From: Pseudodesulfovibrio sp. | GTDB taxonomy: Bacteria > Desulfobacterota > Desulfovibrionia > Desulfovibrionales > Desulfovibrionaceae | Assembly: GCA_016342345.1 (NCBI GenBank) | Contig: JAEINO010000016.1 | Coordinates: 1 to 64,000 of the forward strand | Reading direction: 5' to 3' | Length of the DNA stretch: 64,000 nucleotides | In this document: piece after piece, positions 16,708 to 52,016 of the stretch | Position numbering within the stretch: the stretch's first letter is position 1 | How the letters are laid out: each line of letters starts with the position of its first letter | The notes under the pieces: model-generated | Databases searched by the model: none | What the model was told of the DNA's origin: nothing | What the model saw: only the letters and a program-made list of their open reading frames with translations | Position numbers and translations under genes: made by a program

Positions 16708-16997
16708 TTTGCTCTCCTTGCGAACAAGTCGGCATACCCTGAAACGTCATTATTCGCAACATGTCTGAAAGAATGTTCGCATAATTTATTATGATAATTC
16801 CCGCACTCAAAAAAAGCTCGCATGTTGAGATATTCCGGCCATCAACAAAGACAGCTTAAACACGCCCACACACTCGTATCTGGGACGCAAACAAAAGCAC
16901 ATGAAGACGATCTGCTTGATTTGAATTGATCAAGAACTGGACGACAGGGCAACAAAATGAGTCAGGGGGCCCCTCGGGATGCTGACAAAATCAATCT
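16708..16997. other. intergenic region upstream of the aminotransferase gene
   Basis: No gene is seen. AT-rich sequence near 16770-16800 could hold the aminotransferase promoter (minus strand). A 13-bp CTGACAAAATCAA segment near 16982 resembles sequence just before the repeat element at 38018. Confidence 0.4.
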
Positions 16998-17154
16998 AGG
17001 GAAACGCTGATTAAATCAATCTTCAGGAAGTGCTGTAGAATTGTTCGCTGGCAAGGCGCGCAAAAAAGTCAAGGCTGACGAGTGCTTCCTGCACGCTAGG
17101 GTTTGATTTTTTTTGCAGCAACAAAGCCAGAGGGCAATTATGCAGTGCTTCCCT
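16998..17154. repeat. MITE-like hairpin element, copy A
   Basis: Non-coding repeat of about 157 bp. Its reverse complement is nearly identical (about six differences) to 51535-51690. Inner ends are imperfect inverted repeats (AGGAAGTGCTGTAGAATTG at 17025 against the complement of CAATTATGCAGTGCTTCC at the right end). The core carries CAAGGCGC, a T-run and GCAGCAAC, shared with the elements at 17157 and 38018. No open frame. Confidence 0.85.
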
Positions 17155-17156
17155 AG

Positions 17157-17281
17157 CAGGGGGGGGGAGAATAGTGCGAGTACAAGGCACAAAAAAACTC
17201 AAAATCGACGCGTACTTTTGTACGTTTGAATTTAAGTCTTTTTGCTACAAGGCCACGATAGAAGCCTTGATAAACAGCCTG
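17157..17281. repeat. MITE-like hairpin element, copy D (degenerate)
   Basis: Non-coding repeat of 125 bp, the same length as the copy at 38018-38142 and alignable to it end to end. It shares CGAGT-CAAGGC-C, the palindrome CGCGTACTT-TGTACG, a TTTTTGC segment and the end AACAGCCTG. The left end has decayed into a run of G. It lies 2 bp from copy A. Confidence 0.8.
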
Positions 17282-37959: not shown

Positions 37960-37993
37960 AAAGAAAGGAACCGGTCACAGACCGGCTTCTTTT
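37960..37993 (+). terminator. terminator after the sugar decarboxylase gene
   Basis: AAGAA-CCGGT and ACCGG-TTCTTTT arms (with a bulge) surround CACAG. Nineteen bases of it (37974-37992) recur exactly at 38153-38171, on the other side of a repeat element. Confidence 0.7.
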
Positions 37994-38017
37994 AAAGTGC
38001 TGACAAAGCCAATCTGG

Positions 38018-38142
38018 CAGGCTGTTGAGAAAGGTTCGAGTGCAAGGCGCAATAAAAATTCAAGAGCGACGCGTACTTCTTGTACGCTAGAATTTGAATT
38101 TTTTGCAGCAACGCCGCAATCGCGGCCTTTGTCAACAGCCTG
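38018..38142. repeat. MITE-like hairpin element, copy C (intact ends)
   Basis: Non-coding element of 125 bp with 17-bp terminal inverted repeats that differ at one position (CAGGCTGTTGAGAAAGG and CCTTTGTCAACAGCCTG). The core holds CAAGGCGC, the palindrome GCGTACTTCTTGTACGC, a T-run and GCAGCAAC. The same architecture occurs at 17157-17281 and in modified form at 16998 and 51535. Confidence 0.88.
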
Positions 38143-50735: not shown

Positions 50736-50762
50736 CAGTCAGAACCAGTATACCAGTTACAG

Positions 50763-50853
50763 ACCAGCTTCCCTACGGCAGGATTACCCGCATCAGGTTC
50801 AAAGGGTTGAGCGATAAGCCCATCTCAGCCTCAATGAGGCACCCCTAGCTGGA
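50763..50853 (-). ncRNA. TPP riboswitch (THI element)
   Basis: On the minus strand the sequence has the conserved parts in order: P1 stem (CCAGCT / AGCTGG), AGGGGTGC, GCTGAGATGGG, CCC...GAACCTGATGCGGGTAATCCTGCC, GTAGGGAA. It binds thiamine pyrophosphate and shuts off thiSGHFEC by letting the terminator at 50700-50735 form. Confidence 0.95.
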
Positions 50854-51094
50854 AATAACGGTATGCCATTCCGTTCTCGCTGTAAAGAACTGATCACCAT
50901 ATTATCAACAAATCAAAATCACAGATTTACAAAGATTCTCCACAAAAAAATCTCAAAACCAATACGACCATAACCATCAGTATTTACTACTTATTCGCTA
51001 TTTAATGCGCCCCATATTTCAGACACCCTAAAGTTGAAGCCCTCCTTAACCGATAAGGAATCCATAAGAAGAAACTAAACAGGGGAAACGTCTC
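50854..51094. other. divergent promoter region of the thi operon and the zinc-ribbon gene
   Basis: No gene is seen. It is AT-rich and must hold the thi promoter (minus strand) and the promoter of the gene at 51095; no clear boxes were assigned. Confidence 0.4.
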
Positions 51095-51535
51095 ATGTTT
51101 TCAACAGTATTCCAAGCAACCGGTTTCAAGCGGGCACTGGACCTCTGCAAAGAGGGAAAAAATGATGAAGCTGAAGCTCTCCAAAAAAGCCTTCAGGATG
51201 AGTTTTTGGCCGTATGCGAAGAAAACGAAGCACTCAAGACTCAACTGTCAGAAGTCGCGGACATTCTTGATCTTGCAGAAAAAGTACAGTTTGACGGACA
51301 AAAGTACTGGCTTGTGGACGATAACGAGCGGAAAGGCCCATTCTGTCAAGTCTGTTATGATCGAGACGGATTACTGATCCATCTCCATGAACATGACAAT
51401 CACTGGGAATGTCAGAGTTGTCGAGGCTTGTATATGATCCCTCGCGACACGATAAGCAAACCCAAAAAAAAGACGTTCCTGCGAACGACACTCAAGAAAA
51501 CCATCCCTCTCTTCCTTGAGCAGGAAATGAGCTAA
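51095..51535 (+). CDS. zinc-ribbon-like protein, unknown
   Basis: This 146-residue protein has a helical N-terminal half (coiled-coil-like to about residue 65, 'ALQKSLQDEFLAVCEENEALKTQLSEVADILDLAEK') and a C-terminal small zinc-ribbon-like pair of CxxC motifs ('CQVC' and 'CQSC' about 23 residues apart). The tail is strongly basic. No family is recognised. The ATG follows AGGGGAAACG. The stop codon's last base is the first base of a repeat element (51535-51690), and the gene's terminator comes after the element. Confidence 0.65.
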   Translation: MFSTVFQATGFKRALDLCKEGKNDEAEALQKSLQDEFLAVCEENEALKTQLSEVADILDLAEKVQFDGQKYWLVDDNERKGPFCQVCYDRDGLLIHLHEHDNHWECQSCRGLYMIPRDTISKPKKKTFLRTTLKKTIPLFLEQEMS

Positions 51536-51690
51536 GGAAGCACTGCATAATTGTCCTCTGGCTTCGTTGCTGCAAAAAAATCAAACCCTAGCGTGCAGGA
51601 AGCACACGTCAGCCTTGACTTTTTTGCGCGCCTTGCCAGCAAACAATTCTACAGCACTTCCTGAAGATTGAATTAATCAGCGTTTCCCTA
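51535..51690. repeat. MITE-like hairpin element, copy B
   Basis: Non-coding repeat of about 156 bp; its reverse complement matches 16998-17154 with about six differences. The core holds GCGCCTTGCC (complement of the CAAGGCGC box) and GTTGCTGC. The ends carry imperfect inverted repeats. It begins on the last base of the stop codon of the preceding gene. Confidence 0.87.
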
Positions 51691-52016
51691 ACGAAACACT
51701 AACCTGACTCATTCACAGAAAAACAGTTCTATTATCAAGGCCCACAAGCGAAATCGGAAACTTGTGGGCCTTTTGTATACCAGCCAAAACAACACACAGA
51801 CACGACATCATTCGTCCTTGTCCCGCCCCTCTTGATCCCCAAACCAACCACCGGATAAAGAATTCATTGACTTGAATTCAAGCGTCTTCAATTCCCATTT
51901 TTTTGAGGATTCTCAAATGAAAGCATAAGATTATAATGGTTAGAATCATAATTTCCATCATACGCAACACACCATGAACATTTTCAAACCGCACATTCTG
52001 GAGAGGGGTAAGGTCT
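51691..52016. other. intergenic region before the PocR-PAS-GGDEF gene
   Basis: Contains a terminator (51738-51776) and then AT-rich sequence with no clear gene. A promoter for the gene at 52017 must lie here, but no boxes were assigned. Confidence 0.4.
51738..51776 (+). terminator. terminator after the repeat element
   Basis: AAGGCCCACAAG pairs with CTTGTGGGCCTT around CGAAATCGGAAA, followed by TTG. It probably served the zinc-ribbon gene before the element separated them. Confidence 0.8.

Follow-up and report, generated by a model that had tools for sequence, protein, structure and literature searches.

The window studied here, the first 64,000 nucleotides of contig JAEINO010000016.1 from a Pseudodesulfovibrio sp. 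assembly (GCA_016342345.1), contains four short hairpin elements, which are very probably MITEs of two types that share a common core, the A-type with IS5-like ends and YTAR targets and the C-type with IS1182-like ends, both moved in trans by DDE transposases. Both types are built on one plan: a structured core has two left ends, L and L', spaced 26 bp apart, on one side and one right end (R) on the other. Transposases of the DDE kind, provided in trans, would act on these ends, and the parent elements have presumably been lost from the draft source genome, or missed in it. In kind these are known MITEs; what is new is the covarying core shared under exchanged ends, together with the doubled left end.

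The A-type is represented in the window by a 153-bp copy at 17000-17152 (plus strand; L at 17000-17025, L' from 17026, core at about 17050-17128, R at 17129-17152) and by an inverted 152-bp copy at 51536-51687 (minus strand). Flank comparison places an unstranded CTAG target-site duplication around the former, at 16996-16999 on the left and 17153-17156 on the right, and the latter is bounded by CTAA duplications at 51532-51535 and 51688-51691 (likewise unstranded). The initial annotation of this DNA had called the two a near-identical inverted pair, and indeed 16998-17154 matches the reverse complement of 51535-51690 at 96.1% over 155 bp, with 5 mismatches and 1 gap. The C-type hairpin, with ends CAGGCTGTTGA and TCAACAGCCTG, lies at 38018-38142 (plus strand) and is preceded by a leader of about 21 bp at 37997-38017 (plus strand), the whole intact element being 37997-38142. 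The alignment claimed between this hairpin and 17157-17281 was recovered at 77.8% identity over 117 bp. The latter segment (plus strand) is the L', core and R portion of a second C-type element, split by the A-type insertion, and its leader (left end L) is found on the other side of the A-type copy, at 16980-16999 (plus strand); when the flanks of the A-type copy are joined, they align across the join with the intact C-type element (37979-38142). Both leaders had been overlooked in the first reading. Because it is inserted within the C-type element, the A-type copy at 17000 is younger than its host. Three further claims agree with our comparisons: a core common to all four elements (either A-type copy matches the 38018-38142 element at 74-81% over 72-119 bp), two kinds of ends, those of the A-type and the C-type differing and matching different IS groups, and no open frame, ORFs of at least 90 aa being absent inside all four. 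The window also holds a TPP riboswitch at 50753-50856, on the minus strand (Rfam RF00059, 77 bits).

Copies are dispersed over the source genome, a draft assembly of 4.15 Mb in 149 contigs. With the A-type query 45 matches were obtained, 3 partial and 42 close to full length (87-100% identity), and with the C-type query 65, A-type cores among them. For copy number, a count of right ends was preferred over similarity matches, the first similarity pass having scored 40 candidates only. The A-type right end GGAAGCACTGCATAATTG, taken as an 18-mer with at most 1 mismatch, occurs 106 times against 0 for the reversed pattern, which is far above chance, and a looser A-type end pattern occurs 243 times against 31 in the control. 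The core was matched 131 times in the source-genome stretches fetched by then (81 A-type, 50 C-type). That the sequences might be found only once elsewhere, the outcome that the initial annotation had set against its own reading, is refuted by these numbers. Both ends and flanks could be read in 74 A-type copies of the fetched stretches, which measure 152 bp (60 copies), 153 bp (13) or 154 bp (1), belong mainly to two subfamilies, of 38 and 22 copies, and have a median pairwise identity of 90% (range 80-100%) with 7 identical pairs. The elements are short, multicopy and non-coding, as expected of MITEs.

The distribution of the two types differs between genomes. Of 288 family genomes, 21 have the exact A-type end pattern, with no mismatch allowed; 36 of the genomes in this set belong to the genus, and 3 of these have the pattern, namely the source genome with 178 sites and two others with 17 and 1; the lone site belongs to a short element without room for a core (L256). 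A diverged A-type relative was found in another genome of the genus (G139, L153). Since the exact pattern is present in so few genomes of the genus, the A-type burst looks recent and local. The recent movement that had been proposed for the repeats as a whole thus holds for the A-type; it does not for the C-type, the copies of which are more diverged and in some cases interrupted by A-type copies. C-type cores were retrieved from 25 contig stretches among 84,980 species genomes, in two classes of Thermodesulfobacteriota: these stretches are labelled as Pseudodesulfovibrio, Desulfovibrionaceae, Desulfovibrionales, Desulfobacteraceae, Desulfospira joergensenii and unplaced MAGs. The C-type query had no match in phages and plasmids, nor did the core pattern in viral contigs. 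Among the papers listed by a literature search that reached few subscription journals, and mostly titles and the beginnings of abstracts, none described the A/C hairpin family.

Transposition of the A-type is recorded in its flanks. An exact 4-bp duplication, nearly always YTAR, borders 61 of the 74 copies; the two middle bases are TA in every copy, and the two sides agree at base 1 in 64 copies and at base 4 in 70, when 44.5 and 39.7, respectively, would be expected if the sides were independent. YTAR itself is present in 72 left and 74 right flanks of the 74. A passage of a published article (PMC10359306) gives YTAR as the target duplication motif of IS5. For the C-type, target duplications are only partly apparent. 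Among 13 copies of related genomes with a readable right end, exact duplications at the expected spacing were found in 2 (L159, L162), and CTAG or TTAT follows the right end in 9; two further duplications were matched by eye (L156 and the second copy in L171), and no clear one was found at the intact C-type copy of the window. The dispersed copies, the exact A-type duplications, the nesting and the presence of like ends on IS elements of the same bacterial family together bear out the proposal, made from the window alone, of a non-autonomous mobile hairpin family.

The choice of target also bears on where the elements reside. In 39 of the 71 A-type copies with a flank of at least 320 bp (out of 74), the duplicated target contains the stop codon of a frame of at least 90 codons reading towards the element, compared to 19 of 77 tolerated YTAR control sites, all taken from the window (Fisher p 0.0002). 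Of the 49 A-type copies that could be classified (out of 74), 28 have a right-hand gene directed towards the element, with a distance of 0 in 14. The right ends of the C-type are similar in this respect, with 41 of the 60 classified copies (out of 88, array units counted) and a distance of 0 in 16. Elements often lie exactly at stop codons because YTAR contains TAG or TAA, and a preference for CTAG may add to this placement. On a simple reading, insertion of this kind does no harm, since the stop is regained through the duplication, so that a YTAR target overlapping stop codons would offer mobile elements a safe-landing route.

Elements with matching ends and a transposase were found in the same bacterial family as the source genome. 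A-type-like ends bound a 1170-bp element (G119, L265) flanked by TTAA and TTAG, in which the IS5-type gene is broken, and two further loci (L267 and L271) each have one A-like end beside an incomplete transposase frame, scoring 305 and 198 bits with the IS5_4 model (cut-off 140). Other short elements, with A-like ends but core-less, are present in many family genomes, and there was no complete IS among those of them that were fetched. In the source genome, where no A-type parent was found, PF01609 gave 3 matches: two are IS5_3 copies with other ends, and no A- or C-type end was found near the third. It is possible that a parent copy was missed in the draft. The IS5_3 copies, on contigs C59 at about 35207 (L146) and C35 at about 4005 (L147), were rejected as parents on account of their ends (RTRGTGTAGTCACGAGA), though they too are flanked by CTAG. 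Their transposase is encoded in two overlapping frames, which may reflect programmed frameshifting or decay, and an A-type copy adjoins the IS in L146. The A-type resembles MITEs of IS5-group IS elements in size, terminal repeats, lack of coding capacity, YTAR duplication and high copy number; it differs from them in its doubled left end, in a long covarying core that is absent from like-ended IS elements, and in that no parent was found in its own genome. From its target and from the like-ended IS elements, the A-type is likely a derivative of the IS5 group, and an IS5-type transposase would be its probable mobiliser.

The C-type leads to a different group. Right ends of the C-type sequence, with YTA-type flanks, were found at contig ends in genus g9 (L172-L176), and the protein tail preceding this right end gave access to 13 copies of a 1448-bp IS in one genome (G143; L208, L212-L223), with C-type-like ends CAGCGTGTTGAAAAAC and GCAACGGCCTG. 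This IS encodes a 469-aa DDE frame with PF05598 and PF01609, the best NCBIfam model for which is IS1182, at 161.6 bits and below the cut-off of 270. It resembles the C-type in its ends (CAGnnYGTTGnAAAA) and has a TA-containing 4-bp duplication, the flanks being identical in 11 of the 13 copies. It differs in its length, its transposase frame, its single left end and the absence of a core, and its assignment to IS1182 is qualified by the score. Two other candidates were discarded: an IS3-like gene in L172, which appears to be inserted into the true IS, and frames of some 465 aa that precede several C-type copies and resembled a common partner, which are different housekeeping-type genes cut by the 1500-bp flank. 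No C-type parent was found in the source genome. By the shared ends, the C-type is likely an IS1182-like derivative, which the corresponding transposase would mobilise. The transposase with matching ends that the initial annotation had suggested looking for, for example of the IS200/IS605 kind, has its likely counterparts in the same bacterial family, in IS5-type and IS1182-like enzymes instead of the IS200/IS605 kind, and none was found in the source genome.

Two features set the elements apart from these IS elements. One is the left end: in the A-type, GGAAACGCTGATTAATTC is followed 26 bp on by GGAAGTGCTGTAGAATTG, both resembling the right end, and the A-type copies of another genome of the genus (G271) have a doubled left end likewise. 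At five C-type loci of genus g9 (G106 C8, G050 C3, G009 C32, G094 C10, G075 C7), two CAG-type ends lie 26 bp apart in the same direction, and the doubled end is also present in short elements with no room for the core (L256, L094). As judged by eye, there is one left end only in each of these IS elements. We predict that L' is an extra transposase-binding site. The other feature is the core: A- and C-types both contain GCAAGGCGC, a hairpin and GCAGCAACG within different ends, and this core was absent from both IS elements checked (L212, L265). Since the IS elements have neither the doubled left end nor the core, the MITEs did not arise from them by internal deletion alone. A core shared under different ends, and absent from the like-ended IS elements, is a point that an ordinary MITE leaves unexplained. 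One of the short core-less elements (L094, contig C6 of the source genome) has C-type ends and is followed immediately by CTAG and the A-type copy at 126731-126893.

C-type units also occur in tandem. In the source genome, arrays of 2-4 units are found on eleven contigs (C10, C48, C24, C15, C59, C53, C20, C87, C68, C146 and C21, represented among L061, L063, L072, L075, L077, L079, L080 and L085-L087); the units are mostly 124-176 bp long, that on C21 being a composite of A and C. Other C-type arrays were found in L135, L138 and L140. In 7 of the 8 arrays with both units scored, the last unit has better paired arms than the internal one, the exception being L140 (internal and last unit, in kcal/mol: C53, -16.3 and -29.1; C68, -16.9 and -34.0; C59, -18.0 and -24.1; C87, -14.5 and -47.2; C20, -13.0 and -44.6; L138, -14.3 and -49.9; L135, -10.1 and -33.7); the last units of C10, C15, C21, C24 and C48 had been removed with the repeats and are thus outside these scores. 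In the source-genome arrays it is, as a rule, the right arm of the last unit that is best paired, a pattern to be expected if units were duplicated in tandem with one of the breakpoints lying in the right arm.

The fold of the core was examined on an alignment (A1) of 56 C-type copies out of 87 usable ones (88 found, 1 too short). The structure is paired in 94.3% of the cells, compared to only 33-42% for structures slid along the alignment, and in 36 of the 44 pairs both partners have changed, which amounts to 297 such cells against 63 in shuffles (0 of 500 shuffles reached 297); the choice of copies, which left out 6 with a basal pairing above -12 kcal/mol and 25 more, mainly by keeping the better-paired and less redundant ones, biases covariation in helices 1 and 2 towards pairing, and helices 4 and 5 played no part in it. 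The constancy of the loops in A1 is partly built in, as L120-L144 were fetched by a pattern that fixed the core loops and only near matches to these loops entered the later C-type lists; A-type copies, which were found also by their ends alone, have the same core. In a DNA palindrome, template switching at hairpins can also keep the arms alike, so that covariation is no sure sign of function.

This covariation also speaks for a different explanation, in which the repeats are a cis-acting RNA conserved in 3' untranslated regions (a terminator, a stabiliser or a protein-binding hairpin), dispersed and not mobile. The orientation of the C-type neighbours (41 of 60 pointing at the element, 16 at distance 0) would suit such an RNA, as would the balance of G-U over A-C cells, as if the fold of one strand counted: 93 to 28 in A1, and 60 to 15 in a recount of the other-genome copies among the 87, or 34 to 14 without one pair that holds 26 G-U cells. 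This excess is a hint, not proof, of one working strand, and it is missing from the C-type copies of the source genome (18 to 20) and from the A-type (41 to 55). Stop-codon placement, moreover, largely follows from YTAR, and the YTAR duplications, the nesting and the near-identical copies require transposition. The mobile reading had been said to fail if the sequences lay in a conserved RNA family; on the element regions Rfam gave no match at gathering score, and its weak hits there had E values of 0.08 or worse. We therefore consider a non-mobile RNA unlikely.

Two other kinds of hairpin mobility fit less well still. Movement as single strands by a Y1 transposase, as for IS200/IS605 or REP/RAYT hairpins, would be in keeping with long imperfect hairpins and with 4 Y1_Tnp matches in the source genome, 3 of them over the cut-off, but the ends searched for are absent from all four Y1 loci (L148-L151), like ends sit on DDE IS elements, and the A-type copies have 4-bp target duplications, the mark of DDE enzymes; this route is very improbable. 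Integron-like attC sites, which would be folded sites in tandem just behind stop codons, recall the hairpins that adjoin stop codons and the tandem arrays, but the RYYYAAC / GTTRRRY pair is absent as judged by eye and the YTAR duplications of the A-type argue against them, so that we give this idea almost no credence. REP/BIME and other bacterial palindromic repeats are likewise dispersed extragenic hairpins, some in tandem arrays; the elements described here share these traits but exceed such repeats in size, their ends are of the DDE type, and the A-type copies are flanked by 4-bp target duplications.

MITEs moved in trans by DDE transposases remain our preferred explanation, within which the core might be kept because some factor recognises its fold or its loops. 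A bolder and rather doubtful reading is that the core is a module of its own, a selected folded DNA or RNA with near-constant internal loops across two classes of Thermodesulfobacteriota, carried by at least two sorts of ends, GGAARYRCTG and CAGGCTGTTGA, and perhaps by a third, GTGCTTGGATGAAAAC-like, in Desulfobacteraceae. MITEs are normally defined by their ends, and their interior drifts; if the core were such a module, a hairpin cargo would change transposase and keep its interior, which is the opposite of an ordinary MITE. Two families that combine the ends of different IS groups with a shared compensating hairpin and a like doubled left end make it possible to test whether selection can act on the interior of a MITE, and whether MITEs pass from one transposase to another.

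Some copies depart from the common plan. In Desulfobacteraceae, a third kind of end surrounds the same core, GTGCTTGGATGAAAAC-like in L130 (909-1036) and L139 (5870-5997) and TTTGGATGAGAAT-like in L141 (7255-7383). In L128 (855-983) and L138 (3624-3754) of MAG KR46, the basal stem differs from site to site and overlaps with the stop codon of the adjacent gene, as if the left arm had been copied, inverted, from the end of that gene. Finally, G271 contains, alongside 152-bp copies, A-type elements of 205 bp in which the upper part of the hairpin is longer by about 50 bases (L225, 441-645; L226, 475-679).
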